Part shown: piece after piece, positions 2,875-21,783 of the stretch
Layout: the number at the start of each line of letters is the position of its first letter
Position numbering within the stretch: position 1 is the first letter of the stretch
NCBI GenBank assembly: GCA_903912485.1
Contig: CAIWHR010000377.1
Location: 1-51,782 of the forward strand
Length of the DNA stretch: 51,782 nt
Source of the DNA: an uncultured beta proteobacterium
GTDB taxonomy: Bacteria > Pseudomonadota > Gammaproteobacteria > Burkholderiales > Casimicrobiaceae
Reading direction: 5' to 3'
The notes under the pieces: model-generated
What the model was told of the DNA's origin: nothing
The model's database searches: none
What the model saw: only the letters and a program-made list of their open reading frames with translations
Program-made: the position numbers and the translations under genes

Positions 2875-2950
2875 GGGGCGTTAGCTCAGTTGGTAGAGCA
2901 GCGGACTTTTAATCCGTTGGTCGCAGGTTCGAGTCCCGCACGCCCTACCA
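2875..2950 (+). tRNA. tRNA-Lys(TTT)
   Basis: Cloverleaf GGGGCGTTAGCTCAGTTGGTAGAGCAGCGGACTTTTAATCCGTTGGTCGCAGGTTCGAGTCCCGCACGCCCTACCA; anticodon TTT, encoded CCA. Confidence 0.95.
2904..2950 (+). repeat. attL (47-bp direct repeat, within the tRNA 3' end)
   Basis: gacttttaatccgttggtcgcaggttcgagtcccgcacgccctacca, identical to 19475-19521. Confidence 0.93.
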
Positions 2951-3012
2951 CTGGATAATCAAAGGGTTAGGAAGATATTCCTGGCCCTTTTTCTTTGGCA
3001 TTTTCGCCAAAT

Positions 3013-3031
3013 GGGACACTGGCGGGACACT
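3013..3031 (+). promoter_or_regulatory. Putative integrase arm-type sites (2 x GGGACACT, 11-bp phase)
   Basis: GGGACACT at 3013-3020 and 3024-3031, just inside the left end. Confidence 0.5.
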
Positions 3032-3154
3032 CCGCCAGAGAAAGCCAACCGTAGCCGCCACGGGCCCGGCACTTCCGTCTGTTTCCCGCACGACATCGAA
3101 TGCTGGTGAGCCTCGGCGCTTGCGCCTGTGGATAAGTCGCGGAATTCGGCACGG

Positions 3155-3174
3155 AGTGTCCCATGCGTGTCCCA
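3155..3174 (-). promoter_or_regulatory. Putative integrase arm-type sites, inverted (2 x GTGTCCCA, 11-bp phase)
   Basis: AGTGTCCCATGCGTGTCCCA upstream of int. Confidence 0.5.
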
Positions 3175-3306
3175 TGACAACTTTTTTGTGTAACAGTTTA
3201 GCTATGACAGCATATCGTTTTGTCGGCCGATTGCCTATCCGATGTTGTGCTTTTCTCTCGATTGTCGTAGACTTCGCTTGTCACCTCCCACAAGCGAGCA
3301 AACGCC

Positions 3307-4386
3307 ATGGCGACCATCGAGAAGCGGACTGCGGATAACGTCACTGCCTACCGGGTCAAGGTGCGGCTGCGCGGGTTCCCGCCGGAGACCGCGACCTTCG
3401 AGCGCCTGACCGACGCGCGCGCGTGGGCGAAGCTCACCGAGTCCAATATGAAGGCTGGTCGGCACTTCGGGGCGAGCAAGCGCCATACGTTCGCGGACCT
3501 CGCCGACGAGTACGCGCCGCACGCCAAGGACCCGGAGCGCCTCGCATACTGGCGCGGGGTGTTCGGTTCAGACCTGTTGTCTGCAGTCACCCCGGAACGC
3601 ATCGCCAAGGCGCGAGACAAGTTGCTGGCCGAGGAAACGTCCCGGTTCGCTACTCCTGCGACCGGCGACGAGGCACTCGACGCGAAGCGCCAGAAGGCGA
3701 AGCGCAGCGGTCCGACCGTCAATCGCTACGTCGCGGCGCTGTCCGTATGCCTCGCTCACGGGGTCAAGGAGCTGCGCTGGATTGAGCGGAACCCGTGCGA
3801 ACTGGTCAAGAAGCCGAAGGAAAGCCGGGGCCGCGTGCGGTTCCTGTCCGACGACGAGCGCACGAAGTTGCTCGATGCGTGCCGTCCGCACGCAGACCTC
3901 TATCTGGCGCTGGTGCTGGCGCTGACGACCGGGGCGCGGCAGTCGGAGGTCATGTCGCTGCGGTGGGGTCAGATTGACTTCACCCGGCAGGTCATCACGT
4001 TGCACGACACGAAGAATGGTGAGCGTCGGGCGCTGCCGCTGGTGGGCGAAGCCTTCACGCTCCTCCAGGCACGCGCCAAGGTGCGGACGCTCAAGGACGA
4101 CCGCATCTTTCCGCCGACCGAGAGGGCGAAGAAGGCCACGCACATCGACCTCCGCACCCCGTGGGAAGACGCACTCAAGATCGCGGGCATCACCGATTTC
4201 CACTGGCATGACCTCCGACACACCGCGGCGAGTTACCTCGCCATGTCGGGCGTGTCGCTGGTCGAGATTGCCAAGGTCCTGGGGCACCGCACGTTGGCGA
4301 TGGTGGCGCGGTACAGCCACCTGTCTGACGGCCACATTGTTGCGACGGGCGAGAAGCTGGCCGCGCGGCTGGGGGTTGGAGCATGA
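3307..4386 (+). CDS. int: Tyrosine recombinase/integrase of element 1
   Basis: Catalytic motifs TTGARQSEV, HWHDLRHTAASYLAMSG, LGHRTLAMVARYSHL. Confidence 0.95.
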   Translation: MATIEKRTADNVTAYRVKVRLRGFPPETATFERLTDARAWAKLTESNMKAGRHFGASKRHTFADLADEYAPHAKDPERLAYWRGVFGSDLLSAVTPERIAKARDKLLAEETSRFATPATGDEALDAKRQKAKRSGPTVNRYVAALSVCLAHGVKELRWIERNPCELVKKPKESRGRVRFLSDDERTKLLDACRPHADLYLALVLALTTGARQSEVMSLRWGQIDFTRQVITLHDTKNGERRALPLVGEAFTLLQARAKVRTLKDDRIFPPTERAKKATHIDLRTPWEDALKIAGITDFHWHDLRHTAASYLAMSGVSLVEIAKVLGHRTLAMVARYSHLSDGHIVATGEKLAARLGVGA

Positions 4387-5321
4387 ACATCGCGCCCCCC
4401 GTCTATATCCCTTATCAGAGAGGGAAGGCATTGCTTCAAGCCAAATGGGAAGCAAGTCCCGCGGAGATCGCGGGCTGGGTGATGCTTGGGCCGAACGTAG
4501 AGACAGCAAAAGAAGAGGAAGGAGCCAAAGAAGCAATTGAAGTGCAACTGCCGAACACCGGTGGGCTCGCCGCGTATTTCTTCCACGAGAAGAGCGCCGA
4601 GTACCGCCAGTTCGACTTCGCGCTTGCGCTCCTTGGATCGGGCGATGTCGATTATCTTCGCGTGCTGCAGCAATGCTGGTTCGTGCAGGAAGACCTTGAC
4701 ACTTTCAAGCCGACGCATCGATTCCTAACGCGCGCCGCGCTCATCGAACGGTGGAGCAGGTTGCCTTCGAGCTTCGGGAATGCGAGCGTGGTTGATGCCG
4801 GCGCATCCGCCGATCCCAATGCCACCAAGGAAGTCATTGATTTCCTCAACAACCAAATTCGCGCCGAGCACTTGACCGACCTACACCCCGCGCTGGGCCT
4901 CGCCCACTTCGCGGTATCGCAAGACCACGTGACCAGAGACCAAGCTCTCTTCTTCGTAAATGAAGTTGAGGCGATCGAGCGAGCCCACTTGGGGGTCGCT
5001 GGAGCCGTGGAAGTACCAAAGTCTCCCGTGACCGGCATCACGCGGAATCAAGTCATTGGCGAGTTCCGAGTCTGCCCCAAGGTCGCTGAAAATGAGCGAT
5101 ATTGGGGGGGCCGTCTGGGCGATCCACCGAAATGGTTACGTCCAGCGCGCATGACGTCAGGTAGTAAGGGCAAATCCGCGCTCTGGGATCCGGTCCTCCT
5201 CGCCCATGCGCTGCTGGCCGCGAAGTACATGACCACTCGCCAATTGGATGCGGTGATGCGCGAACGGTTCCCGAGCCGGTTTGAGGAATGGCGGGAGTAC
5301 ACGCGGGACATAGACCGGTAG
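4383..5321 (+). CDS. Hypothetical protein coupled to integrase
   Basis: 312 aa; ATGA overlap with the integrase stop; no family recognised. Confidence 0.75.
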   Translation: MNIAPPVYIPYQRGKALLQAKWEASPAEIAGWVMLGPNVETAKEEEGAKEAIEVQLPNTGGLAAYFFHEKSAEYRQFDFALALLGSGDVDYLRVLQQCWFVQEDLDTFKPTHRFLTRAALIERWSRLPSSFGNASVVDAGASADPNATKEVIDFLNNQIRAEHLTDLHPALGLAHFAVSQDHVTRDQALFFVNEVEAIERAHLGVAGAVEVPKSPVTGITRNQVIGEFRVCPKVAENERYWGGRLGDPPKWLRPARMTSGSKGKSALWDPVLLAHALLAAKYMTTRQLDAVMRERFPSRFEEWREYTRDIDR

Positions 5322-5336
5322 CGGAGCTTGCCGGCT

Positions 5337-5402
5337 CGACTTACCGGGAAAGTTGCCGGCTGTCCGGCGCTTCATCAATGACGACTTACCGGTGGTAAGT
5401 CG
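5337..5402. promoter_or_regulatory. Putative operator: 21-bp perfect palindrome plus upstream half-site
   Basis: CGACTTACC-GGT-GGTAAGTCG at 5382-5402; extra CGACTTACC at 5337-5345. Confidence 0.6.
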
Positions 5403-5467
5403 GGAAACATACCTGTTGCGTACACAGGAGACTCGACCACAGCGCACGAGCGCAAGGAAGTCTCCAG

Positions 5468-5803
5468 ATGACCCAGAAGACGCAGTTCGCCCCCAGTCCA
5501 GAGGTCGCGCAAGAGCCCGCAACCTCTTGCTACAGTCCGAGGTTACACACCGTCGCGCAGTTCTCGAAGGCCAATCCGGCATTTACGATATCGGCGCTGC
5601 GAAACCTGATATTCAAGGCAGACCCTCGCCAATCCTCCGTCGGCGAAATTCCTGGCAACGGCCTTCTCGAAGCGGGGGCCATTGTTCGTCTCGGGCGCAA
5701 GGTCATGCTCGACGAGGCCCCATTCTTCACCTGGATACGGCGCGGTCAGCGTGAGTATGTGCAGCCAAGTCCCGTGAGCAATCGCCGCCGGGGCTCGAAG
5801 TGA
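5468..5803 (+). CDS. Excisionase-like / HTH DNA-binding protein
   Basis: HTVAQFSKANPAFTISALRNLIFKA...NGLLEAGAIVRLGRKVMLDEAPFFTWI resembles integrative-element excisionase-like proteins. Confidence 0.65.
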   Translation: MTQKTQFAPSPEVAQEPATSCYSPRLHTVAQFSKANPAFTISALRNLIFKADPRQSSVGEIPGNGLLEAGAIVRLGRKVMLDEAPFFTWIRRGQREYVQPSPVSNRRRGSK

Positions 5804-6030
5804 GCCGCCGCTCAACGGGATCGCCCCCCAGGCGTGGCGAAGCCCTCGGCAAGGAGGGCTCCGGTACAGCGGCAAAACAGACAGACAACACTTCGAATCC
5901 TACCGGCGATCCCCGCGAACTTCAAGACATCGGCACCGCGCGCCACGCTAATCAACCGGGGCCACGCTGGGAGCCGCCGCCGGGCGCCGCCGCGGTCGCG
6001 ATGCTCCAGCGCTGCTGGGGGTCGCTATGA
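5800..6030 (+). CDS. Small hypothetical protein
   Basis: GTG start; 4-nt overlaps with both neighbouring genes. Confidence 0.45.
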   Translation: MSRRSTGSPPRRGEALGKEGSGTAAKQTDNTSNPTGDPRELQDIGTARHANQPGPRWEPPPGAAAVAMLQRCWGSL

Positions 6031-6716
6031 CTGGCCCCACGCTGAAAATTCACCCGCTCGCCGCCGCGCTGCCGGCGATGCTGCGCGACGAGTACGTCGA
6101 ACTCGTGGCCGACATCAAGGCCAACGGACTGCGCGAGCCGCTGATGCTGTTCGAGGACCAGGTCCTCGATGGCCGCCACCGCTGTCGCGCTTGTGTCGAC
6201 CTCGGCATCGCGCTGAACACCAGGACTTTCACCGGTACCACCGCCGACGCGAAAGCCTACGTCGTGTCGCTGAACGTCCATCGCCGACACCTGACGTTCG
6301 AGCAGAAGCAGGAGGTGATCGACGCCGAACTGAAACGCGACCCGAAGCAGTCGGATCGGTCTATCGCGAAGAAGGCTAAGGTCGACCATAAGACGGTTGC
6401 CAAGGCACGGGCAAGAGCGGTCGATGGTGGGGAAATTCCCCACCAACCCGAACGTGTCGGCGTCGATGGTGTGAAGCAACTAGTGGCAAAGCCAACGACG
6501 GCTGCGGCAACCACGGCTTCGCCGCCGCGACCGAAAGTCCCGGTCGCGATGCATGGAGTAGTGCCTAGTGCCAAGCCTTGCATCGGAATGCAGTACGCGC
6601 GTATGGCAATCGAGCGTCTTGAGGAAATCCCGCACGACGACATCGAGCGTACTCAAGCGCTCGTAGCGGTCCAAGAGTGGATTGGCAGGAACACGGTTTC
6701 CGGTGAGGTGGCGTGA
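6027..6716 (+). CDS. ParB/sulfiredoxin-like domain DNA-binding protein
   Basis: ELVADIKANGLREPLMLFEDQVLDGRHRCRAC...VVSLNVHRRHLTFEQKQ is typical of ParB N-terminal domains. Confidence 0.85.
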   Translation: MTGPTLKIHPLAAALPAMLRDEYVELVADIKANGLREPLMLFEDQVLDGRHRCRACVDLGIALNTRTFTGTTADAKAYVVSLNVHRRHLTFEQKQEVIDAELKRDPKQSDRSIAKKAKVDHKTVAKARARAVDGGEIPHQPERVGVDGVKQLVAKPTTAAATTASPPRPKVPVAMHGVVPSAKPCIGMQYARMAIERLEEIPHDDIERTQALVAVQEWIGRNTVSGEVA

Positions 6717-9289
6717 TGACTGCCGACGCTGCGGTCACAGGCGCGAGCTCCGACACATTTCATGCTCGGCCGCCAGAAAGCGATGAAACCAACGAAACCA
6801 ACTACTGCCTCACCAACGACGCTTTCCTCGCCGCCGTGTTCGGCGACGTCCTGAGCGACGACCGTCCAATGGTCGTCAGCTTCAAAGGCAACCCAGCGCC
6901 TCTCCCCAACGGTGAAAAGGACACGAGGTGGTTTGGGCGTGATTGGCATGGCGACTCCGGCCTGTCGCCCGCGGCCAACAACTACTTCAGTCTTGCCAGT
7001 TTCCGCCCCGATGAGGCGGGCAAGTATCGCCGGCAAAAAAGGCACTTCAAGGCATTGGGTGCGATCATGCTCGACGACGTTGGAACCACTGTCGCTCGGG
7101 AGCGGGTTACCTTGCCACCGTCGTGGATCTTGGAGACATCCGACGGCAACCATCAGGTTGGTTACATCCTGCGCGAGCCTTTGGAGGATGGTGTGGTCGC
7201 CGACAAGCTCATGGACGCTGTCATCGCTGCCGGCCTATGCGATCCCGGCGCGAATGGCCCATGTGCGCGGTTGGCAAGGCTGCCTGTGGCCGTCAACGGC
7301 AAGCATACGCCGCCCTTCGCGTGCAAAATGGTCGCCTGGTTCCCTGATCGCCGCTACTCGGTTGAAGAATTGGTCGACGGGTTGGACTTGGAAATGGTTC
7401 AGCCACGGGCGAAGCGGCAGACGAGGAAGGCTACTGGTACGGCGCGCGAGCGCCCGCACGACGGCGACGACGTATTCATCGCTGAACCTGACGAAAATGG
7501 CGTGCTGGTGGCCCTGAAGAATCGCGGCCTACACAAGTCACCGTTGGGCAGCGGCAAGCACGACATCACCTGTCCTTGGGTGACGGAACATACAGATGCG
7601 GTCGACGGTGGGACCGTCTACTTCGAGCCCGACGACAACTGGCCCATCGGCGGGTTCAAGTGTCTACATGGACACTGTGCTGGTCGCCACGTCCGCGACC
7701 TGTTGCGGTTCCTTGACGTCGCGGTGAGTGACGCGCGCATGAAGCCGAAGATTCTGGTTGTTTCCGGGGAGATTCACCGGATCGTCGACCGGGCCGAGTT
7801 CGAACTCGCCCGGACCGGTCGTCACTATCAGCGCGGCTGCCAAATCGTTACTGTCGTCACCGACCCTGGCACCCGCGAAACTCTGGTGCAGGACGTGAGT
7901 CAACCCGCCCTAGTGCGTGCCCTCGCTGGCGTTGCCACGTGGGAGCGGTTCGACGGGCGCAGCGAGCAGTGGGTGAGAACCGATCCCCCAGCTCGGCACG
8001 CGGGTGTGCTGTTTGACTCGAGCGGCTACCCCCACCTGCCAGTGCTGGCTGGGTTGACTCGGCAGCCCTATCTGCGCCCTGACGGCAGCTTGATGACGAC
8101 GGCCGGCTACGACTCAGCGTCGGGAATGTTCGGCGTCTTCAACCCGCGACAATTTTCCATCCCCGACAGGCCGACGCGAAAACAGGCGGAAGCGGCGCTA
8201 GCGGCGCTAGATGAGTTGCTCGCGGAGTTCAGCTTCCCGCGCGAAAGCGACCGTGCCGCCGCGCTGGCCGCGGTGCTGACGGCCGCGGTCAGGCCCAGCC
8301 TACCGCACGCTCCGATGTTCCACGCGCGTGCTCACTCGGTCGGCTCGGGAAAGTCATACCTTTGCGCGCTGATTTCCGCCTTCGCCACGCCGCAGCGGGG
8401 AACACCGACGACATTCCCAGCCGACGACGAGGAGTGCCGGAAGCTGCTGCTGGCCGAATTGCTGAGAGCGCCCGCCGTCATTGAGTTCGACAACTTGACC
8501 GGCGACTTGGTTGCCCATAAGAGCCTTTGCACGGCGTTAACCTCCGAGAACATCAGCGGGCGCATCCTCGGTGTATCCAAGACCGCGACCGTCGGCACCC
8601 GTGCTCTGTTCCTGTCCAGCGGGAACAACGTTGGGCCGGTGCAGGACATGACCCGCCGCTGCATCACCATCCACCTCGACCCGGCGTGTGAAGTACCGGC
8701 GGCACGCACTTTCAAACGCCCTGATCTGGTCCGCGACGTGCTGGGTGACCGTGGCCGGTATGTCTCGGCAGCGTTGACCATTGTTCGCGCGTGGATCGTG
8801 GACGGACGACCCCAGACCGCGTGCAAGTCGTTAGCTGGATTTGGGGAGTGGTCCGACCTGTGCCGGCAGCCGTTGCTCTGGCTCGGGCTGGCGGATCCGA
8901 CAGAATCTGTGTTCGAGGCGATGGCCGAGGACCCCGACCGGGAAACGCTGGATCGATTGCTGACCGCGTGGCAAGCGGTCTTCGGTCGGGCGCCAGCGAT
9001 GGTGCGTGAGGCTGTCAGGATATCGTCCGAGTTTGGCGCCGACGCGAACGTTGAACTGAGCGAGGTGCTGCGGGATATCGCAGACGAGCGCGGGGCGATC
9101 AATCGGAAAAGGCTCGGGCGCTGGATCAAACGGCACGCTGGGCGGATCGTCAATGGTCGGCGCTTTGCCCGTGCTGACGGCTCGCGGGCGGCGGAGGCTT
9201 GGCGGGTCGAGTTGGTTTCATCGGTTTCGTCGGGTCCTTCCGGTCCAAATGAAGAATGTGTCAACGATGATGTCACGATTGAGATATGA
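6713..9289 (+). CDS. Primase-like / P-loop NTPase replication protein
   Basis: 858 aa. N-terminal RepB/primase-like region (IMLDDVGT...TSDGNHQVGYIL...ARLARLPVAVNGK) and a C-terminal ATPase with Walker A-like HSVGSGKSYL. Confidence 0.75.
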   Translation: MMTADAAVTGASSDTFHARPPESDETNETNYCLTNDAFLAAVFGDVLSDDRPMVVSFKGNPAPLPNGEKDTRWFGRDWHGDSGLSPAANNYFSLASFRPDEAGKYRRQKRHFKALGAIMLDDVGTTVARERVTLPPSWILETSDGNHQVGYILREPLEDGVVADKLMDAVIAAGLCDPGANGPCARLARLPVAVNGKHTPPFACKMVAWFPDRRYSVEELVDGLDLEMVQPRAKRQTRKATGTARERPHDGDDVFIAEPDENGVLVALKNRGLHKSPLGSGKHDITCPWVTEHTDAVDGGTVYFEPDDNWPIGGFKCLHGHCAGRHVRDLLRFLDVAVSDARMKPKILVVSGEIHRIVDRAEFELARTGRHYQRGCQIVTVVTDPGTRETLVQDVSQPALVRALAGVATWERFDGRSEQWVRTDPPARHAGVLFDSSGYPHLPVLAGLTRQPYLRPDGSLMTTAGYDSASGMFGVFNPRQFSIPDRPTRKQAEAALAALDELLAEFSFPRESDRAAALAAVLTAAVRPSLPHAPMFHARAHSVGSGKSYLCALISAFATPQRGTPTTFPADDEECRKLLLAELLRAPAVIEFDNLTGDLVAHKSLCTALTSENISGRILGVSKTATVGTRALFLSSGNNVGPVQDMTRRCITIHLDPACEVPAARTFKRPDLVRDVLGDRGRYVSAALTIVRAWIVDGRPQTACKSLAGFGEWSDLCRQPLLWLGLADPTESVFEAMAEDPDRETLDRLLTAWQAVFGRAPAMVREAVRISSEFGADANVELSEVLRDIADERGAINRKRLGRWIKRHAGRIVNGRRFARADGSRAAEAWRVELVSSVSSGPSGPNEECVNDDVTIEI

Positions 9290-10011
9290 CCCCTGCGGCA
9301 ATCATCGAGCAAGCCGCATCTGACGGCGTCTCGCTAACCGTGACTCCTCACGGGACAATCAAGGTAAGCGGCAAGGACGTAGTCGTAGAGCGGTGGCGCG
9401 CACTCCTCGCTGCCAACAAGCTTGGAGTCATTGCGTTGTTGACGCATCTTGCAGACGGGCAGAAGGAAACCGACATAACCGATTTAACCAACTCAACTGC
9501 ACATGGTTGGCCGAGCGGCTCCCGGCGGTTCGGCGTCTCCGAAGCCAACATCGAACGGCGCGCTCCGGGAACCGACGCCGTGCCTGTCTATGGGCAATCC
9601 GGAATCGAGCCGCCGCCCCGGCGATCCGCGACCGTAGACGAGGCGGCTGAACTGCGGGCGTTGATCGAGGCCGTCCTCGCCGACGCGCCGGAAAAGTGGG
9701 ACGAGGTCTTCCGCATTGCCTGTGCCGATCCGGAGTCAGCGTTGATCTCCTGGCGCTCGTTGATCGTGGGCGTGCCTCCGGTAGTGCCGCCATTCCCTGA
9801 TCCGCCGACGTGCCGGCAATGTTTGAACGTGTGGCGGTGCAGAAAGCCACCCCCGATAGGCTACGCCGACTCCCGGAGCGCGCTCACCAGCCCGCCATAC
9901 GACCCGGCGATCGACGTTGGGCTGCGCTGCGAGTCATACCGACCAAACGCTGCCGATCCCGACCAAAGGCCCGCCTGGGAGCGCTGGCCGGATCTACTGG
10001 AGCGTTCCTGA
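9286..10011 (+). CDS. Hypothetical protein
   Basis: 4-nt overlap with the upstream gene. N-terminus AAIIEQAASDGVSLTVTPHGTIKVSGKDVVVERW resembles a short domain seen in integrative-element proteins. Confidence 0.65.
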   Translation: MTPAAIIEQAASDGVSLTVTPHGTIKVSGKDVVVERWRALLAANKLGVIALLTHLADGQKETDITDLTNSTAHGWPSGSRRFGVSEANIERRAPGTDAVPVYGQSGIEPPPRRSATVDEAAELRALIEAVLADAPEKWDEVFRIACADPESALISWRSLIVGVPPVVPPFPDPPTCRQCLNVWRCRKPPPIGYADSRSALTSPPYDPAIDVGLRCESYRPNAADPDQRPAWERWPDLLERS

Positions 10012-10307
10012 TGGCGACTAATTGTGCAGTCCGCGAGCCGCAGACCATTGACGGGGCTACGTTGGCGATCGTACCCACCCCCAAGCGTCGCCGGGCGCAG
10101 CTCGATCGGTTGGAAGGCGTCCGCAGCGAGATGAGCCGAGTCTACCGGGAGATGGAGTCCGGCAAGCGTGACAGCCAGGACGGATCCAGGCTCGTGTACG
10201 TCCTGACCCAGATCGCAAAAATTCTGGAGCTAACCGAAATCGAGCGCCGGCTGATCCGGCTGGAGGAACACCATGGCAAGGTACGCGGCGCGCCTGGACG
10301 TACTTGA
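10011..10307 (+). CDS. Small hypothetical protein
   Basis: Overlapping TGATG start; predicted helical/coiled-coil protein. Confidence 0.55.
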   Translation: MATNCAVREPQTIDGATLAIVPTPKRRRAQLDRLEGVRSEMSRVYREMESGKRDSQDGSRLVYVLTQIAKILELTEIERRLIRLEEHHGKVRGAPGRT

Positions 10308-10500
10308 AGAGCAGCTTGGCTTCGGAGAGTGCGGCGACGAGCCTTGCGATAAGTGCGTCATCAACCACGCCATTGCCAGCTTTCGCGGCGTTCCGTGGGC
10401 AGGATGCAACGGACGCCCCGATGCGGAATCAGACCTATGCGGGGCATCCGCCGATGAAGTCAGGCGGATGATGGCCGACCTCGAAGCGGCGAGCCAGTAG
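10273..10500 (+). CDS. Small hypothetical Cys-containing protein
   Basis: MARYAARLDVLEEQLGFGECGDEPCDKCVINHAIASFRGVPWAGC; overlaps the upstream ORF. Confidence 0.45.
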   Translation: MARYAARLDVLEEQLGFGECGDEPCDKCVINHAIASFRGVPWAGCNGRPDAESDLCGASADEVRRMMADLEAASQ

Positions 10501-10728
10501 GTCGGTCTCTCTCCTGGGCCGACCCGTAGAGATCGGTCGCGTAGCTGTACGGGGTCGCCGCCGCAGGTCCGCGGCTGAGTCGAGCGGAGCCCGCGCAGCC
10601 ACCTGTTGCCAGCAGCCAGCAACCGCCAGCAGCCGCTCGTTTGCGTATGCGCGTCAGCGGAACCTATACTGCGCCGACGAGCAACTCGTTCCGGCGTCCG
10701 TCGGTCCGAGCCACGAAAGGGAGATGTG

Positions 10729-11229
10729 ATGAAGCCGGGAATCACCGTTCGCCGCATCATCGTTGTCCTGGTCGGGTTCGTCGGTGCGGTATCGCTGGTT
10801 GCGGTCGGAGCCAACAATCAGACAATCACCACGTCATTTTCAAGCCAGTCTGGGGCGATCAATGCAATCTACGTAGCCTTCGAAGACCTGATTGGCCCCG
10901 GTGTCGTCAATGTCGGCACGCTGAGCGGGTGCACACTGGTCCCGCCGCCATCGCTGGCCAATTGCAGCCCCGCCGGCGGCTCCGGCACGGTGAACGACCC
11001 CTATCAATGTTCGCCGACGACGCTGGTCTTTGCAGGGTGCAGCGGTGGGCAGCCGTTTATCGTGTTGGCTGGAACGGTGAACCTCAATACCCACGTGCAC
11101 ACCGTCACCGCCGTCGCCCCAGTCGTCACAGCGCAGTCGGTACCGCTATCGCCTTGGGTCCCGCTCGCCAGCGTCGCCGGCGTTCTGCTCGTGATTCTGC
11201 TGCGGCGGCGCGACGCCACGCGCGGCTGA
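10729..11229 (+). CDS. Secreted protein with IPTL/CTERM-like C-terminal sorting tail
   Basis: N-terminal signal/TM; C-terminus VPLSPWVPLASVAGVLLVILLRRRDATRG (Pro/Trp motif - TM - Arg cluster). Confidence 0.7.
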   Translation: MKPGITVRRIIVVLVGFVGAVSLVAVGANNQTITTSFSSQSGAINAIYVAFEDLIGPGVVNVGTLSGCTLVPPPSLANCSPAGGSGTVNDPYQCSPTTLVFAGCSGGQPFIVLAGTVNLNTHVHTVTAVAPVVTAQSVPLSPWVPLASVAGVLLVILLRRRDATRG

Positions 11230-11420
11230 TGATGAACGCGAGCCTGACCGCGCTACGCGCGAGCAAGGCCGACGATGGTGACTTCCTGGTGGCGCTGTAC
11301 CAGCAGTTGACCGGACGCACGCCGACCGCCAAGGAGATCGGGAACGCCCGCAAGCGGCTGGACAGGACAGCCACGCTGCCACCCAGCAGACCGACGCGCG
11401 ATCCGTCCGAATCCGAGTAG
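11229..11420 (+). CDS. Small hypothetical protein
   Basis: Overlapping TGATG start; MMNASLTALRASKADDGDFLVALYQQLTGRTPTAKEIGNARKRLDR. Confidence 0.45.
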   Translation: MMNASLTALRASKADDGDFLVALYQQLTGRTPTAKEIGNARKRLDRTATLPPSRPTRDPSESE

Positions 11421-11658
11421 TAACGCTGGCTGCCAACCCCGTAGGACGGCCCACGATCGACGCTACGGACATGGGACGTGCTACATACTCACGGCAGTTC
11501 CGCGCGTGGCTGGCGTGGATCTGGGACGGCGAGCGCGAGCAGGACGGCGTGCAATACCGCGGCGACCATCGCTGCGACCTCGGCTTCCGGCTCCTGGTCC
11601 TCAAGTCGACGCTGCTGCGCCTCCGGGGATCGGATCAGACGCCACGACCGCACGCGGA

Positions 11659-11732
11659 TTCCGGTGCGACAAACCGTCCGTCGCCAGGAGGCGCCTCATT
11701 GGCCCCCGCGGACGCCACGGCACCGTGTCTGT
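11659..11732. repeat. Dispersed imperfect repeat R1, copy A
   Basis: ttccggtgcgacaaaccgtccgtcgcc...gacgccacggcaccgtg; partner at 14870-14932. Confidence 0.7.
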
Positions 11733-11822
11733 GGAGCGTCGCGCCAACCATGTTATGAGTGCGAGACTCGGGCCGTAGGTGCGGCGTAACGAGCCCGCGC
11801 GTAGTTGCACCCCACAACGCTC

Positions 11823-11881
11823 CAGTCATCACCGTCCACCTTGCGCCAGATCAAACCCGGGGCGCGAAAGACGTAGACACT
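11823..11881 (+). promoter_or_regulatory. Conserved upstream block R2, copy A
   Basis: About 49 of 59 positions identical to 15800-15858 by hand alignment. Lies about 70 bp upstream of a secreted-protein gene. Confidence 0.55.
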
Positions 11882-11950
11882 TGCACGGCAACGCTAGATC
11901 CCCTATGCGCAATACGTCGTTTCCTCACCTGTCGTACGAGGTCGCTCCTC

Positions 11951-13465
11951 ATGCGTCCCAAGAAGTTCGTTCCCCTCGCTCTGATCTTTGCCGTCACTAC
12001 TGCCGGTGCAATGGATTACGGTCATGCCAGTCCCATGTCTGGAAGTACCGCGATCACGGATGGCGTACTTGAACTAATTCAAGCTGCCGCGAGCGGTCGT
12101 TCGGCTCAGAAGGTCGACGCGAACGACAAGGCGGCGACCGTGCTGGACATCACGAAGTATCTTCCACTCCAGGCCGGCAACCAATGGAATTACGTGAATG
12201 GGAGCTACGCGACGCAAAGTGCGACCGTCGGCAGCGCGGTCGCCCTGCCGAGCGGCACGTGGACGATACCGATGACGAGCGTCAAGTCGGGCGAATCGGG
12301 AGTTACAACCACGTATTCCACGAATGATGGCAACGGCCTTCGCCGCCACCAAGAGTATGTCAGCACCGTCTACGTAAACGGGTATGGTTACACGTCCTTG
12401 ACTAGCGTGTATTCCCCTCCGTTGACATTGGCCCCCGCCGCGGTGACCGTCGGGAACACGTACCCGTCAGCGGGGCAAGTCAGTCTGACCTACACGAATG
12501 TCGGGTCAGCTACGTTGAACTACAGCGCCACAACCCAGATCGCCGGCTTTGAAACCGTCGCAAATTCCCAGGGAACAACGTCCTGGTCGGCGCTCAAAGT
12601 CATCACGTCGATCACCGTTTCTGGCACCATCAACGGCCAATTCTTAACCGTTACCAGCTCATCCACGAGTTGGCTTGTCGAGGGTATTGGCTCGGTGCGT
12701 ACGATGACCCCGAATGCGGCCGGGATCACCGAGACATGGAAGCTCAGTTCGACGAACGTATCGCCACCGCCCGTAATCACGGCACCGAGCGCCCCAACCT
12801 CAGTCGTCGCAACAGGAGCGAACTCACAGGCGACCGTCAGCTTCGCCGCGCCTGGGAACAACGGTGGGGCAGCCATCACTTCCTACGCAGTAACGTCAAG
12901 CCCCGCCGGCGGCGTCGATGGAGGTGCGGGCACGACCGCGACGTCACGTACGATCAGCGGATTGAGCAATGGTATCGCCTACACCTTCTCCGTAATGGCA
13001 ACCAACGATGCCGGCACCAGCGCACCTTCGACACCATCGAATAGCGTGACTCCCACGGCCCCGGCAGCACCACCGTTGACCAATGTCAACTTCCAGGGCC
13101 TCTGGTGGAACCCGAGCGAATCGGGCTGGGGCATCAATTTCACACACCAGGGCAACATCATCTTCGCCACGTGGTTTACCTATGATGCGTCGGGTAGTCC
13201 TTGGTGGCTCATCGCGCAACTCGAGAAGGCCGCCCAAGGCGTCTATACGGGCGGTGTATCGACGGTAACCGGCCCGCCGTTCAACTCGGTGCCGTTCCCG
13301 CCCGGCGGCAGCCCCGGCGGAGCCATCGAGACCCCGATCGGCACGATGACGGTCACCTTCAGCACGGCCAACGACGCTACCCTCTTCTACTCGGTGAATG
13401 GAGTAACGCAGACCAAACTGATCACGAAGCAAATCTTTGGGCCGCTACCTGTCTGCACGATGTAG
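11951..13465 (+). CDS. Secreted protein with fibronectin type III domain and C-terminal WWNPxESGWG domain
   Basis: Signal peptide MRPKKFVPLALIFAVTTAGAMDYGHA; FN3 (APTSVVATGANSQATVSFAAP...SYAVTSSP...SNGIAYTFSVMATNDAG); C-terminus GLWWNPSESGWGINFTHQGNIIFATWFTYDASGSPWWL. Confidence 0.82.
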   Translation: MRPKKFVPLALIFAVTTAGAMDYGHASPMSGSTAITDGVLELIQAAASGRSAQKVDANDKAATVLDITKYLPLQAGNQWNYVNGSYATQSATVGSAVALPSGTWTIPMTSVKSGESGVTTTYSTNDGNGLRRHQEYVSTVYVNGYGYTSLTSVYSPPLTLAPAAVTVGNTYPSAGQVSLTYTNVGSATLNYSATTQIAGFETVANSQGTTSWSALKVITSITVSGTINGQFLTVTSSSTSWLVEGIGSVRTMTPNAAGITETWKLSSTNVSPPPVITAPSAPTSVVATGANSQATVSFAAPGNNGGAAITSYAVTSSPAGGVDGGAGTTATSRTISGLSNGIAYTFSVMATNDAGTSAPSTPSNSVTPTAPAAPPLTNVNFQGLWWNPSESGWGINFTHQGNIIFATWFTYDASGSPWWLIAQLEKAAQGVYTGGVSTVTGPPFNSVPFPPGGSPGGAIETPIGTMTVTFSTANDATLFYSVNGVTQTKLITKQIFGPLPVCTM

Positions 13466-13763
13466 TTAGGGTACGCTCGTCGGACAGCGGTGGACCCGCT
13501 GATCGCCGCACCAGCAACAGGCACCCTTTTCGACGCCATGCCGAGCCGACTGTGCGTATTCCGGACCAACGTGACCGGTGATTCCGATCGATCGTGACCG
13601 ATTCCTGCGCTCGATCGCGCGAATGACCTGCTGGATACCGTAGCGATATTCCGCTCCCGTCAGCTTCCCGGCTTCAAGACGAGTCTCCAGCGACTTGAGC
13701 TTCTGCAGCGCGTTGGCACGGACCGGATCGGGAATGACCGTTTCGTCCAGCCAGCGCCGCGGG

Positions 13764-13791
13764 ATGTCGTTCAGGGTATGTCGTTCAGGGT
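13764..13791. repeat. Tandem duplication, 2 x 14 bp (atgtcgttcagggt)
   Basis: Exact adjacent copies at 13764-13777 and 13778-13791. Confidence 0.95.
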
Positions 13792-14741
13792 ATTGACGAC
13801 GTCCGCTTCTGTCTTTACACTTGGATTGAGCCTCTGAATGGTGTTCGCCTCGGGCAATTGGAGCCCGAGCCCATGAAGCCATTCAGGGGCTTTTTGCGTG
13901 TTGTAGTAGCGCAATCCGCCACGCATTCCACGCTCAATAGTTGCCGTCCCGTCCTTCCCGTAGATGCTGGCGATGTTGTTGACGCGGTGGAAACGGATCC
14001 GGCAGCTTGCGCTCGGCAGCCTTGTGCATATCGGCAACCGCTTCGGCCGCGGTCGAGCCAGAGCCCATGATCGGGACATCGCCCTGCTTGATGAACGCCC
14101 TGGAGACGAATGACTGGTCGCCCATGTTGCCGGGATTCGCGCGCCGGGCGATGCTCGGAGCGGTGATCTTGTCGGCAATGGCCGGGGGAGCAGGAATAGC
14201 ATAGCCGGCGGAGTGATCGGTCGGAGATACCGTTACCGGCTCGGTCGGATGCGTTATAGCTTCGGCGGCAGGTTGGGCGTTGTCTCTCGGAGCGGCAGGG
14301 GCTACACTTGGTATGCTCTCACTAGCGTCTGCTGTCCCCGCTCCGGCACCAATGGCGGCGGCAGGAAAGGTGGCATCCGAACCGGAGGATGCGGCTTCTG
14401 CGAGAGGCCAGAGCGAATTCGTACCGCCTCGCTGTTCGTACGGCTGACCTCTCGGGTTGGCGTCCTCCAAGAACAGCGTCGTCACTCCATAACAGCTTCC
14501 GTGCGGTTGAAGTTCAACCACCGAAAACTTTGCGCGTCCGTTTCTCTTGACCAAGAGAAGGCGACCGTTTTTCTGCTCATAAATGTGCGTGTAGTGCTGC
14601 GCCACGTCCGACAGCATCTCGGCCTCTGTGGCGTAACCATTCTCCTGAAATTGCCGTATCTTTTCCGAGATCCGCGTCGAACCGTCGCTCAACAACTTGA
14701 TGCCCGATCCGTCGTCATAGAAATGCCAATACTCCACGACC

Positions 14742-14762
14742 GTCGGCGGTCGGCGGTCGGCG
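14742..14762. repeat. Tandem heptanucleotide repeat (GTCGGCG x 3)
   Basis: Three perfect 7-bp units at the 5' end of the 14737 reading frame. Confidence 0.95.
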
Positions 14763-14869
14763 CCTCTGCGGCTTCTGATTGGGCTTGGCTTCCTCCAGCG
14801 GCATCATTGTGCGCGTCGCCATCGGGTCGGACGTTGAACCGGAGGCTTGCTCTCCCTGGTTCCGGTGCG

Positions 14870-14932
14870 ATAAACCGTCCGTCGCCGAGAGCCGCTTCGT
14901 TGTCTCCATAGACGCCACGGCACCGTGCCTGT
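14870..14932. repeat. Dispersed imperfect repeat R1, copy B
   Basis: ttccggtgcgataaaccgtccgtcgcc...gacgccacggcaccgtg; partner at 11659-11732. Confidence 0.7.
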
Positions 14933-14949
14933 CCTTCGCTACCAAGTCC

Positions 14950-15294
14950 CTATTGTCTTATCTTGTACTGGTAGCCCCGCGTGCGCAGACAAGCGATGTT
15001 TGCATCGGCCCGCATCCCAGCGTTCACATCGCTCTGCGGGGGCGCCGTGTAAGCCCCTGGGGTCGTCGTGCAATTCGTCTGATTACCATTACGCGTGCAG
15101 TTCGTAGTGTCGGGCGCTTGGTAGCCACCCCCGGACGATTGCATTAGTGTCGGGTATGTTCGCGCAGCTTCCATACTGCATTCATAGGAGTCACGACGGA
15201 ACTCTGCTTCTGTAGTGTTTGGGCGCGTCCATCCGCCGCATCCGGTTAGCACAATTGGCGCGACAAGAAGAAACAAGCGGGGAACGCGGATCAT
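14950..15294 (-). CDS. Small lipoprotein
   Basis: MIRVPRLFLLVAPIVLTGCGGWTRP; lipobox LTGC. Confidence 0.75.
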   Translation of the reverse strand: MIRVPRLFLLVAPIVLTGCGGWTRPNTTEAEFRRDSYECSMEAARTYPTLMQSSGGGYQAPDTTNCTRNGNQTNCTTTPGAYTAPPQSDVNAGMRADANIACLRTRGYQYKIRQ

Positions 15295-15372
15295 AACTAT
15301 CTCATCCTGTCGCATTACGGTTGGGTATCGTATCCCGTGGTGCCCTGTACGGCAAGCCACCAGCATTGGCGG

Positions 15373-15618
15373 ATGGCTCGACCCTCCCCCGTACACGCTG
15401 GCGATCCTGCGCTCGTGGCCATCGGCCAGACCATCCGCGGACTCCGCTCAAAGCAAGGCTTGTCGCAGGAAGCCTTTGCGGACGAAGCGGGCGTCGATCG
15501 CAGCTACATGGGCGGCGTCGAGCGTGGCGAGCACAACGTGACCATCATCAACCTGCTGCGGATCTGCCGAGCGCTCGACATGACGACCAGCGACTTGCTG
15601 CGCCGGGCCGGGCTGTAA
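15373..15618 (+). CDS. XRE/Cro-type HTH transcriptional regulator
   Basis: IGQTIRGLRSKQGLSQEAFADEAGVDRSYMGGVERGEHNVTIINLLRICRALDMTTSDLL. Confidence 0.92.
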   Translation: MARPSPVHAGDPALVAIGQTIRGLRSKQGLSQEAFADEAGVDRSYMGGVERGEHNVTIINLLRICRALDMTTSDLLRRAGL

Positions 15619-15799
15619 GCATCTGCTGGGACCCTTCGTCGTCACACGAAGATTGACCAGCGGGCATCGGTCGCGACCCTGAGGCAATTTCCTGCACCTA
15701 CCCCGCCGTCGTTTCGTTCGGGGCAACCGAGCGCGTTGTAGGGCCATTGGGGGAGCAGGGATCGGCAAGGGCAGCGAATGGTTGCGCCGGACAACGGGT

Positions 15800-15858
15800 C
15801 AGTCATCGCCGGCGACCTTGCGCCAGATCAGACCTGGGGCCAGAAAGGCGTATAGACT
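15800..15858 (+). promoter_or_regulatory. Conserved upstream block R2, copy B
   Basis: Matches 11823-11881; upstream of the IPTL-CTERM protein gene. Confidence 0.55.
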
Positions 15859-15973
15859 GTCGGCTGCCGTAAAGCGCCTTACGTGTGATCAGGCATCCCC
15901 TGATTTAGTCCTCACGTACAAGATGCAGCGGGTAGGAAATTCAGCATCGCCGCGCACCGCGCGTTACGAGCTG

Positions 15974-16678
15974 ATGACGGGGAGCCGGATGGGTCTGCGA
16001 ACGAACGTCTACACGGGCGTGGCATTGGCTGCGCTCTGCCTATCCCTCTCAGGACCAGCGTTAGCCGCTCAAGTCGCGGTCCCGTTGGGCAACACGATGA
16101 ACGTGCCGGGCGTCGGCATGAATCTGGCGTGCGCTGACCTCAAGGTCGACGGCACGCTCAACGCCGGATCGGCACAGATCAACCAGACAGCTTCGATGAT
16201 GATCGGGGCAACTGGGCAAGTGCTCGCGGGCAGCGCGACGATCACCATCGCCGGGAACTGGAACAACCTCGGCCTGTTCTCGGCCGGTAGCAGCACCGTT
16301 GTCCTCGGCGATGGCTGCCCCGGCTCGTCTGCGCAACTGACCGGCAGCACCACGTTTTTCAACCTGACGGTCGTCAGTGCCAAGGGTAAGACGTTCAATT
16401 TCCCGCCCGGTGCACAGATCACGGTACTGGGGACGCTGACACTGCAAGGGGTGCCCGGTGCCCCGGTGCACATAGCCACGCTGCCCGGTCAGGCAGCGAC
16501 GATCACCCTCGCCCCCGGCGCGACTCTGGTTCAGTCCAATGCGGAAATTGGCCCTACCGTTCAGATCACGTCGGGCGGGCATTCGATACCCACGCTCGCG
16601 TCATCGGCGTTAGTGGCACTGTCGATGATGATCCTTGCCCTGATGGGAATGGCAAGACGGCGCAGAACAAGAACGTAA
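15974..16678 (+). CDS. Secreted IPTL-CTERM sorting domain protein
   Basis: Signal peptide (VYTGVALAALCLSLSGPALAA); C-terminus SIPTLASSALVALSMMILALMGMARRRRTRT. Confidence 0.8.
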   Translation: MTGSRMGLRTNVYTGVALAALCLSLSGPALAAQVAVPLGNTMNVPGVGMNLACADLKVDGTLNAGSAQINQTASMMIGATGQVLAGSATITIAGNWNNLGLFSAGSSTVVLGDGCPGSSAQLTGSTTFFNLTVVSAKGKTFNFPPGAQITVLGTLTLQGVPGAPVHIATLPGQAATITLAPGATLVQSNAEIGPTVQITSGGHSIPTLASSALVALSMMILALMGMARRRRTRT

Positions 16679-16717
16679 TCCAGTTCGTCAACAACAAGCT
16701 ATTCGTGAGGTGTTTTC

Positions 16718-17683
16718 GTGCGTAGACCAATCGCGGTCATGACTGTTGCCGTCGTCGCAGGGGTGTCGTTGCAAGCCATCGCTGCCGACATCGAGATGGT
16801 GCCCCTGCCGGGCGGTGCGTTCAGCGTCAAGAGTAGTGACGGGGCGAACGTACGGTTCAAGGTCAACGAGACTGGCGACGTGGTTATACCGAACCTCCCC
16901 GCTGCGCTGGCGGGTAAGCCGCTGTGCTGGGATCAGGCGACCGGGGTGCTTCGCGCGTGCCCCGAGGCTGTGGGAACTGATTTTGTGCCGCCGACGATCA
17001 CGATCAATGCACCTGCCGTGGCCTCGGAAACCGCTACGCAATATACGACAAGCTTCTCGGACAACGTCGAGCTTGCATACAGGATATTCTTCGCCGCCTC
17101 CGGGGCACCTGTCACTATGCCCTTTGCACCGGGGCTGACGTCCGCAACAACACAAAGCACTCTCAATGTGCCGCTCGGAACGATTGTGGACGTCTTGACG
17201 CTCGCGGTGGACACGTCAGGAAACGTCGCCAAGAAAGCTACTAGCATCGCAACACCCCAAACGGCGTTCAAGCTGGGGACGTACAACATTCTCGGCGGAA
17301 GTCCACTACCTGCACAATTCGACTGCCGCGCTGGTGCAAGCGATCTAAACAACGCACCGGCGTCCTCTGCAACAATCTCATTCGCTGATGCGTGGAGTCT
17401 CTCGGGGGGGTACACGCCTATTGCGCGCCTAATGCTGTCGAATGGCTTATCAGTTCAACTGCCGGCGATGCCGTCTACAACGCTCACTGCGCTCGACGCA
17501 ACATCATTCCTATACGGCGATACGATTCCGATGTACGGAAGGGCAGTGTACCGAGGCGAGGTCAAGATGCTCTCAGCATCTCCGGCGAAGCTTCAGATCG
17601 ATATACAGATGAAGTGCGGGAACGACACCGAAGGTTGGACATACGGCGACAAGGCGACAATCACCGCCGAACTCATCCCGTAG
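16718..17683 (+). CDS. Hypothetical secreted protein
   Basis: GTG start; signal peptide MRRPIAVMTVAVVAGVSLQAIAA; long coding-like ORF. Confidence 0.75.
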   Translation: MRRPIAVMTVAVVAGVSLQAIAADIEMVPLPGGAFSVKSSDGANVRFKVNETGDVVIPNLPAALAGKPLCWDQATGVLRACPEAVGTDFVPPTITINAPAVASETATQYTTSFSDNVELAYRIFFAASGAPVTMPFAPGLTSATTQSTLNVPLGTIVDVLTLAVDTSGNVAKKATSIATPQTAFKLGTYNILGGSPLPAQFDCRAGASDLNNAPASSATISFADAWSLSGGYTPIARLMLSNGLSVQLPAMPSTTLTALDATSFLYGDTIPMYGRAVYRGEVKMLSASPAKLQIDIQMKCGNDTEGWTYGDKATITAELIP

Positions 17684-17844
17684 GGTGGCAGGACCTTCCG
17701 TAGGATTGCTTCTAGGCCGTTCTACGGACAACTTTTCGTTGTTGTGTAACCGTCCGAGCGTACGACGCGGAACCACCGACTGACGTGGTGGTCGGCAAGG
17801 TGACGTGGATCATTGCCGCCCACGCTGCGATTGAGGTGTCTCGA

Positions 17845-18654
17845 ATGCCTGTTCGTTTGCGCAGACTCTGCGTCGTGTTGCTGCTCGTGGCCATGGGTTT
17901 CTCGACCTCCGCGTTCGCGCGTATCGACACGAGATCACTATCCGCGGACCCGCCGATGGTCACGCTGGAGTTCAATGACACCATCGACCCAACCGATCTT
18001 GCCCGTTTCCAGAATGTGATCGCTGGCATGGAGCAGGTGATCAAGGCCACAGGCCAGAAGCAGTATGGTCTCTTCGTGCGCCTGAACAGCGACGGCGGTG
18101 ACGTGGCGACCGCCATGAAGCTCGGCCGGCTTATCCGCAAGCACGCTTATGCGGTCGCGGTGGAATCCGGGGCGTCGTGCGTCAGTTCATGCGTGTTCTT
18201 GTTGGCGGCCGGACAGCGGCGGACTATTGAAGATGGCGGCAAGGTGGGCATTCACCGCCCCTACCAAGCGGAGGCGGTCGCAACATCACCCGATGCGGAG
18301 CAGAAGAAGTACGCCGCGATCGGCCAAGCCGTGGAAGCGTACCTACGGGACATGAACGTCGATCCGCGCCTGTATGCCGACATGCTGCGCATTTCGCCGC
18401 AGCGTGTGCGTTACCTGTCCGATCAAGACATGATCAACTATGGACTGCTCGGGGACGACCCATATGTGGAGGAGGCCGACGCCATGGAGGAGGCGAAACG
18501 CTTGGGCATATCTCGCGCGGAACTGGTCCGACGCAAGGCTATCGAGTCCCAAGTCTGCGGCGGCTATCCGAACAACAAGAACTCGCCGCAATACGATGCC
18601 CTGATGGTCAAGCGCCTCGAATGCGGAAATCGTGTTCTGAAAAAGGGTCGCTGA
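17845..18654 (+). CDS. Periplasmic ClpP/crotonase-fold protein
   Basis: Signal peptide; LNSDGGDVATAMKLGRLIR, ESGASCVSSCVFLLAAG (Ser position), GKVGIHRPY (His position). Confidence 0.8.
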   Translation: MPVRLRRLCVVLLLVAMGFSTSAFARIDTRSLSADPPMVTLEFNDTIDPTDLARFQNVIAGMEQVIKATGQKQYGLFVRLNSDGGDVATAMKLGRLIRKHAYAVAVESGASCVSSCVFLLAAGQRRTIEDGGKVGIHRPYQAEAVATSPDAEQKKYAAIGQAVEAYLRDMNVDPRLYADMLRISPQRVRYLSDQDMINYGLLGDDPYVEEADAMEEAKRLGISRAELVRRKAIESQVCGGYPNNKNSPQYDALMVKRLECGNRVLKKGR

Positions 18655-19351
18655 CTGATCATTCGTCACCTGTCCAGCACCCGCTGTGGATGGTCGTCAT
18701 TTCTGTTGACTCCTTTCCACAATTACGTCGCGATTTGCTTTGCGCTATCTGCCCGTGGCTGCGACCTTCATTAGTCGACTCTCCTTCGCGGTCATTGACC
18801 CGCGGTCACAGCAGCCATGAACGGGCGTGGTTCTTGAATGGTTCCGCGTTGCGCACGTAGCAATAGTACATCCCGAGCATCCGAGCCGGGCAACAAAGCC
18901 CCATCCGGTATATCTGGTGCAGCTTCGTCAACGGGTGACGGGTTGGACATCCAGCCGATGGATGGGGACACGACCAATATACCGCCAAGGCCCGCCGAAA
19001 CCAAGGACACCGACAGGGCCCCGGCGCTGAACTCAACTGCAGAGCGGGGCGACATGGCCAGCGTGACGGCGGTCAGCGTTCGACTTGCACGCAGCCGAAG
19101 CCAAGATGATCGCGCTGCCGGTCGGTGACCGCTACCTCGAGTTACTGCACGACTCGCTGGACGACATGAGGGCGGTCATCGACGGGCCGTAACAGGCGGG
19201 CAGCACGGCCGGGTACATTGCCGATGATGACGGAGTTCGCCGGCACTCGACGTTGCCAACCACGGTGCTGCGAAGCGAACGCCGGCAGCGTGTCTGGCGT
19301 CGTGCCAGCCCGGCGCCATCCCCACTTGCATTCACGTTACGCGTTACGCGT

Positions 19352-19370
19352 GGGACACTGGTGGGACACT
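19352..19370 (+). promoter_or_regulatory. Putative integrase arm-type sites at right end (2 x GGGACACT, 11-bp phase)
   Basis: GGGACACT at 19352-19359 and 19363-19370; same motif and phase as the left end. Confidence 0.5.
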
Positions 19371-19474
19371 CAGCCCCAGAAAGTGGCAACAAGCGAGAAG
19401 ACACCGGAACAGTTAACCCGATGATTGCATTGTTGTTGTGTGTTTCTGATTGCTCTGGTTTTCTCGTCCCGCGA

Positions 19475-19521
19475 GACTTTTAATCCGTTGGTCGCAGGTT
19501 CGAGTCCCGCACGCCCTACCA
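19475..19521 (+). repeat. attR (47-bp direct repeat of tRNA-Lys 3' end)
   Basis: Identical to 2904-2950; lacks the tRNA 5' half. Confidence 0.93.
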
Positions 19522-19569: not shown

Positions 19570-19609
19570 TGGCACATATGTGGCACACTCCTCCGAAGGA
19601 GGTGTGCCA
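19570..19609. promoter_or_regulatory. Putative second-integrase binding repeats and RBS-containing hairpin
   Basis: TGGCACA at 19570-19576 and 19581-19587; inverted TGTGCCA at 19603-19609; stem GGCACA(CT)CCTCC-GAA-GGAGGTGTGCC at 19582-19608 contains the SD. Confidence 0.55.
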
Positions 19610-21003: not shown

Positions 21004-21039
21004 TCAAGACCTGCCCGGCGCACATCAGTCTTCTTGATC

Positions 21040-21190
21040 GCGCTCACCGGGTGGCGGTCGATCAGCATTTCCCGGGCATCCCGCACATCGCGGACCGCTT
21101 CCACGTTGTCCGCTTGGCATCCCCCGCGCTGGAGAACGTGCGCTTGAGCGTACGGCAGCGCCTGAACCGAGGCACTCGCGGCTCAAGACG
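21040..21190 (+). mobile_element. ISL3-family transposase remnant
   Basis: VAVDQHFPGIPHIADRFHVVRLASPALENVRLSVRQRLNRGTRG resembles the ISL3 transposase core; the rest is missing. Confidence 0.65.
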
Positions 21191-21479
21191 GATCAAGCGC
21201 AGCCGGAAGGTCGCGGCTGCCATAGACGATTCGCTCGATTCGCAGGGTATCGTGGTCGATCCGGAACAGGATCACGTAGCGTCCCGTCGTGGCCATCCGC
21301 GCCTCGTCGCCGATGTCAGGGCGGAGTTGGTACATGAGGGGATTGCTCTGGATGGTGCGGAACGTGGCCCGTATCTCGCGGACGAAGGTAACGGCGCGCA
21401 GCGGATTGTCCTGTGCGATGTAGGCGGCGATGTCGTCGAGATCGCTTTCGACGAAACCCGAGAGTTCCAGCCGTATCAC
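21183..21479 (-). CDS. parE: ParE-type toxin (RelE/ParE superfamily)
   Basis: MIRLELSGFVESDLDDIAAYIAQDNPLRAVTFVREIRATFRTIQSNPLMYQLRPDIG...GRYVILFRIDHDTLRIERIVYGSRDL. Confidence 0.9.
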   Translation of the reverse strand: MIRLELSGFVESDLDDIAAYIAQDNPLRAVTFVREIRATFRTIQSNPLMYQLRPDIGDEARMATTGRYVILFRIDHDTLRIERIVYGSRDLPAALDPS

Positions 21480-21763: not shown

Positions 21764-21783
21764 GGGGCGCTCCTTCGTGTGAC

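Follow-up and report, generated by a model that had tools for sequence, protein, structure and literature searches.

Many tRNA islands lack a known way of moving, and a 16.6-kb element (2904-19521) seated in a tRNA-Lys gene of a betaproteobacterium raises the question of how such an island might travel. The source genome is a 644-contig assembly, and the window referred to below is the whole 51.8-kb stretch analysed, contig C377. We consider it probable that the element is a phage satellite that excises and replicates and whose DNA a helper phage packages, as in the PICI and PICMI way of life. This reading draws on what the sequences themselves display, namely integration and replication modules, the absence of recognisable virion genes, relatives located at tRNA genes, and the adjacency of TerS and primase genes in relatives.

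The element and its ends

The first-pass annotation had placed the ends of the element at exact 47-bp repeats, and a repeat search confirmed these at 2904-2950, within tRNA-Lys(ttt), and at 19475-19521, with no third copy in the window and none expected from shuffled sequences. Across all 644 contigs of the source genome, the tRNA-Lys gene itself is the sole full-length exact match, and attR is the only other exact match to its 3' part. The motif TGGGACACT occurs in pairs starting at 3012/3023, 3155/3166 (inverted) and 19351/19362, each with 11-bp spacing. These three pairs are the only ones in the 51.8 kb (shuffle mean 0.05), all lie just inside the element ends, and they look like integrase arm-type sites. 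Since they occur at both ends and are conserved in a sister island, we take 2904-19521 to be a real element. In its acceptor stem the tRNA-Lys (2875-2950) carries the pair G4-C69, whereas the congeners carry C4-G69; the double change is compensatory, and C69 is also present in the attR copy.

The sister island occupies the same tRNA-Lys in the congener G003. Its integrase is 85% identical to that of the window, as are its last 171 bp through attR, and each of the three motif pairs has a counterpart there. The gene after its integrase overlaps int by 4 nt and does not match 4383-5321 of the window in sequence. The sister island also carries a homologue of 5468-5803 (64% identical), and no copy of the island primase was found in G003; the integration chassis and the replication module thus appear to have been exchanged separately.

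The first-pass annotation had looked to related genomes for empty sites, and the congener G002 has an intact, unoccupied tRNA-Lys with a lipid-kinase-like gene (by eye) next to it and no integrase. In the congener G001 the tRNA-Lys is also unoccupied over the 450 bp available. The left flank of the island is common to the family and the right flanks vary. An exact empty site was sought and rejected, as the left flank is syntenic but the right flank is different in every congener, and we therefore limit the claim to an unoccupied tRNA-Lys.

Table 1. Features of the element and its tRNA target, in window coordinates.
Feature	Position	Strand	Support
tRNA-Lys(ttt), integration target	2875..2950	+	ARAGORN
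attL, 3' 47 bp of tRNA-Lys	2904-2950	+	repeat search
Putative arm-type site pair, TGGGACACT x2, 11-bp spacing, inside left end	3012..3031	+	conserved in sister island L072
Putative arm-type site pair, inverted, upstream of int	3155..3174	-	conserved in L072
Tyrosine integrase	3307..4386	+	PF00589 E 3e-31; 85% identical in G003 sister island
int-overlapping gene (ATGA), position of PICMI 'iolg'	4383..5321	+	no HMM match
Small putative DNA-binding gene, AlpA/excisionase position	5468..5803	+	position; 64% homologue in sister island
ParB-like protein, translationally coupled to primase	6027..6716	+	TIGR00180 E 0.0026 (weak); phrog_21315 1e-22
858-aa AEP (RepB-type) primase + D5-like helicase	6713..9289	+	PHROG; structure/Foldseek; conserved motifs
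241-aa coupled gene	9286..10011	+	C-terminal domain 43% identical to one in another same-genome element
98-aa helical-hairpin protein (predicted)	10011..10307	+	homologue in contig C369
75-aa ORF, end of replication operon	10273..10500	+	ORF call; no HMM match
Cargo: secreted or membrane-anchored protein	10684..11229	+	signal peptide and C-terminal hydrophobic segment by eye; no HMM
Cargo: secreted fn3-domain protein	11951..13465	+	PF00041 E 1e-9
Cargo ORF, no assigned function	13934..14737	-	ORF call
Cargo: putative lipoprotein	14950..15396	-	LTGC lipobox by eye
XRE-type HTH regulator	15337..15618	+	PF13560 4e-11; PADLOC control-protein 6e-20
Cargo: secreted protein, IPTL-like C-terminal tail	15989..16678	+	by eye; no HMM match
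Cargo: secreted protein	16718..17683	+	signal peptide by eye
Cargo: exported ClpP-fold protein	17785..18654	+	PF00574 E 0.0013; NF045542 3e-7, below cut-off
Putative arm-type site pair inside right end	19351..19370	+	conserved in sister island L079
attR, exact 47-bp copy of tRNA-Lys 3' end	19475..19521	+	repeat search

Gene content

The integrase reported by the first-pass annotation is intact, with the R-HxxR-Y residues present by eye. The product of 5468-5803 had been called excisionase-like; its position and its sister homologue favour that call, but no Pfam or PHROG model matched it, AlpA and HTH models included. No called gene of the island gave an above-cut-off match to capsid, portal, terminase, relaxase or T4SS models in Pfam, PHROG or NCBIfam, in agreement with the first reading, and the HMM search brought out no hidden structural or transfer genes.

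The description of the cargo as secreted proteins draws on one fn3 domain, recovered by HMM, and on signal peptides and a lipobox recognised by eye. The IPTL-CTERM tail of 15989-16678 is likewise a by-eye reading without HMM support. We rejected 17785-18654 as a prohead protease, as NF045542 scored 30 bits against a cut-off of 120, all head-maturation-protease matches fell below curated cut-offs, a signal peptide was recognised by eye in the protein, and its neighbourhood holds no head genes; it reads as a periplasmic ClpP-fold protein. Short stretches recur as diverged copies (about 80%) at 11659-11881, 14860-14932 and 15781-15858; they occur in the island only, mostly upstream of cargo genes, and are possible seams of cargo acquisition.

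The replication operon

The integrase and the gene after it overlap at ATGA, the ParB-like gene and the primase at GTGA, and the primase and the 241-aa gene again at ATGA, while the 241-aa and 98-aa genes meet at TGATG. The earlier ParB-like assignment has weaker support, from the matches to TIGR00180 and phrog_21315 in Table 1. The primase/NTPase assignment was borne out by phrog_29234 (1e-98), by the DNA primase family phrog_4861 (3e-13) and by a fold match; the gene has no Pfam match. A structural model built from 28 sequences had a mean pLDDT of 71, with residues 560-647 of the helicase half at low confidence. In Foldseek comparisons the predicted N terminus matched the AEP domain of the cyanophage S-2L PrimPol and the RepB' primase, and the remainder of the model weakly matched D5/E5 helicases. 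The primase alignment shows conservation of a Walker A motif (VGSGKS) and of AEP-type motifs. No convincing iterons of a PICI-type origin were seen near the primase. Taken together, the ends, the arm sites, the integrase, the coupled operon and the relatives at tRNA genes give good support to the first-pass view of an integrative element that may replicate after excision.

Relatives of the primase

The primase recurs elsewhere: among 85,462 species genomes scanned, it is present at 40 loci, several of them at tRNA genes. The 27 relatives that were aligned are 44-74% identical to the window primase over nearly its full length, and their other genes differ widely. A small HTH-type gene lies directly upstream of the primase at 20 loci, a tyrosine integrase of one broad cluster is present at 19, and an HTH gene and a recombinase follow immediately downstream at 13. 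Three relatives have defined bounds: a 13.0-kb locus of Legionella santicrucis (L031, tRNA-Asn repeats), an 11.8-kb locus (L039, tRNA-Glu repeats) and a 13.3-kb locus (L044, tRNA-Ala repeats), and further relatives begin beside tRNA-Met, -Ser or -Cys. A plasmid record of Legionella adelaidensis holds a homologue in the annotated order int, FRG protein, hypothetical protein, AlpA, RepB-type primase. Genes for anti-phage defence are frequent among the cargo of the relatives (type I and III restriction enzymes, HmaA, a YhcG-type nuclease), which also includes, by eye, a beta-lactamase-like gene and metal efflux genes.

Among 50,697 phage records none had the primase at a similar level of identity; the best among the matches listed are partial and at most 37% identical. 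In IMG/VR, a first scan gave no relative and an alignment-based scan gave one close relative (L115). Phyla are mixed among MAGs in the primase tree; as bins may be contaminated, we make no claim of cross-phylum transfer from it. No description of a lineage marked by this primase was found in the literature searched, the coverage of which is incomplete. We would tentatively suggest that the primase-helicase may mark an undescribed, widespread satellite lineage of Pseudomonadota and possibly other phyla, with varied cargo (defence, efflux, resistance, secreted proteins), many target tRNA genes, at least two integration modules, and packaging genes exchanged after the primase.

The link to packaging

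At four loci (L024, L029, L031 and L038) TerS is the gene directly after the primase, with matches to PF20901 (E 9e-21 and 1e-33) and to PHROG families (8e-35 and 7e-26). L031, being bounded at 13 kb, thus holds int, an HTH-type gene, the primase and TerS together with no other virion gene by eye, which is the PICI signature. TerL follows the primase in L033 and in L115, a viral contig and the sole close IMG/VR relative. The place after the primase is therefore a packaging position in part of the lineage, and the presence of TerL on two primase-bearing contigs means that the primase is not exclusive to satellites. The 12.9-kb contig of L033 (L033:4766-9300) has an integrase, this primase and a T4-type TerL, with no other virion genes by eye.

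In the window, the place after the primase is occupied by the 241-, 98- and 75-aa genes. The first-pass description of the element as satellite-like gains from TerS in four relatives, from the viral contig joining primase and TerL, and from a PICMI-like syntax, but no TerS is recognisable in the window itself. The AlphaFold model of the 98-aa protein is a two-helix hairpin, a fold that is not specific. A homologue (66% identical) lies in the integrase-bearing contig C369 of the same genome, where a Mor-like late activator precedes it and a weak head-protease match (E 0.001) comes directly after it, a context that is suggestive but no proof. The 98-aa protein, considered as a TerS, matched nothing in PHROG or in phage records and stays a candidate only. 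We also rejected 9286-10011 as a homologue of the post-primase gene of L115, as the two did not align. No clear helper prophage was found in the source genome, which gave only a TerL match at 7.8e-5.

Neighbouring and other elements

A second, distant integrase (19609-21003) lies just right of attR, and beyond it are transposase-like debris and the gene of a ParE-type toxin. As there is no third att copy, this integrase is most simply a remnant of an older neighbour outside the element. It has an unusual C-terminal fusion to a HigA-like antitoxin HTH (phrog_1381 E 4e-9, residues 352-438). The transposase remnant at 20958-21200 (ISL3-like by eye) includes 93 bp that are 97% identical to a locus on contig C18 of G003, and the ParE-type toxin at 21183-21770 (PF05016 2e-14) has an antitoxin-like gene upstream, beside the degraded second island.

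The locus on C369 (L106, G000:C369:1-14185) holds an integrase, a primase-like fragment, a helicase, the Mor-like late activator and the weak head-protease match, and is possibly a prophage or a capsid-forming satellite. Elsewhere in the same genome, L114 (G000:C489) has an integrase 36% identical to that of the island, beside tRNA-Thr. The IMG/VR contig L123 (278-13918) carries a tandem of two modules, each led by an integrase; in one of them the integrase is 49% identical and has an adjoining gene, and the primase is followed by a DUF5681 gene.

Proposed way of life and alternatives

We infer a cycle of induction, replication in vivo and packaging with the aid of a helper. The integrase would recombine the 47-bp tRNA-Lys core by way of the flanking arm sites. 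Upon induction, probably by the helper phage, the protein in the AlpA position and that of the int-overlapping gene may aid excision, and the ParB-like/primase-helicase operon would replicate the excised circle. Particles made by the helper would then package the DNA of the element and carry it to a new tRNA-Lys site, with the secreted-protein genes as cargo.

Alternatively, the island could spread by conjugation from an oriT lacking its own relaxase (iOriT), or by transformation, with the primase only maintaining the excised circle. A plasmid-like circle would suit the primase and ParB-like protein as well, distant relatives of the helicase are on plasmids, an oriT is easily overlooked, and no terminase gene lies in the window. 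We nevertheless regard this route as unlikely, given that models of relaxases, coupling proteins and T4SS gave no match, that the same primase adjoins terminase genes in several relatives, and that the gene syntax is PICMI-like. Also, the element could be a decayed satellite or prophage remnant, now immobile, its intact genes being recent survivors. The degraded island adjoining on the right, the diverged short-repeat copies within the cargo and the lack of TerS would fit such decay, but the two att copies have kept full identity along their 47 bp, the arm sites are conserved, and the integrase, primase and coupled operon are uninterrupted with conserved motifs, which makes an immobile remnant quite improbable.

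We give very little credence to a self-replicating defence or adaptation island with an undescribed movement of its own, neither by phage nor by conjugation: no gene hints at a transfer machine and the terminase neighbours indicate phages, even though the primase lineage occurs with varied integrases, integrase positions and cargo, and one subfamily has a downstream HTH and recombinase pair in place of TerS.

One replication gene links tRNA islands from Legionella to groundwater betaproteobacteria, with a terminase neighbour in some. This makes packaging by helper phages a testable route for islands whose cargo is a restriction system, Hma defence, a beta-lactamase-like gene or metal efflux, and the primase offers a single marker gene for counting such islands.

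Comparison with known systems

The island has no recognised TerL, portal or capsid gene of a prophage and no recognised relaxase or T4SS gene of an ICE or relaxase-bearing IME, and none of its genes matched the P4-like satellite core (sid, psu, delta, alpha primase) in PHROG or Pfam. The tmRNA islands that a jumbo phage moves (I55; PMC12595487) are similar in having a tyrosine integrase at an RNA gene, direct repeats, AlpA and no transfer genes, and their defence cargo resembles that of the island's relatives. Unlike the island, they have AlpA at the 3' end, and the word primase does not occur in the text of that paper (PMC12595487).

PICIs are typically 12-15 kb, carry no structural or lytic genes, use att sites never used by prophages, and depend on a phage for induction and transfer (PMC6092414). 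The island shares with Gram-negative PICIs of the EcCICFT073 type (PMC6092414) a left integrase, a rightward operon, a regulator in the AlpA position, pri-rep and accessory genes. Its integrase, regulator and replication module follow the PICI organisation, the regulator by position only, and no phage structural or lytic genes were found in Pfam or PHROG. At 16.6 kb it is slightly above the PICI range, its bounded relatives being 12-13 kb. As to the PICI packaging route, TerS is present in four relatives, whereas the window has no recognised TerS and there is no helper for a cos/pac comparison. The island also differs in its primase family, which has no Pfam match, and in a host outside the groups covered in PMC6092414.

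PICMIs of Vibrio/Vibrionaceae carry int, an int-overlapping gene, AlpA, often one gene, and a primase, with no TerS (PMC10803314). The overlap is usually ATGA, the overlapping gene is required for excision, and its place is filled by 13 families (PMC10803314). The island has the same syntax of int, ATGA, overlapping gene, AlpA position, one gene and primase, neither system has recognised TerS or virion genes, and the island and its sister also fill the overlapping place with unrelated genes. The gene order thus fits int, AlpA and primase, though AlpA is assigned by position and was unmatched by HMM. The PICMI model primase is DUF3987/DUF5906 and the site is fis, whereas the island has a RepB-type AEP with a predicted D5-like fold and sits in tRNA-Lys; its 16.6-kb length, large cargo and betaproteobacterial host are also unlike PICMIs. 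Since the primase and site depart from PICMIs and neither a packaging signal nor a helper came to light, we do not file the island as either a PICI or a PICMI. The L. santicrucis locus L031 differs from the island in its cargo and in having TerS right after the primase, but it shares the same primase (~63-65% identity), an int with an overlapping gene, and an HTH-type gene before the primase.
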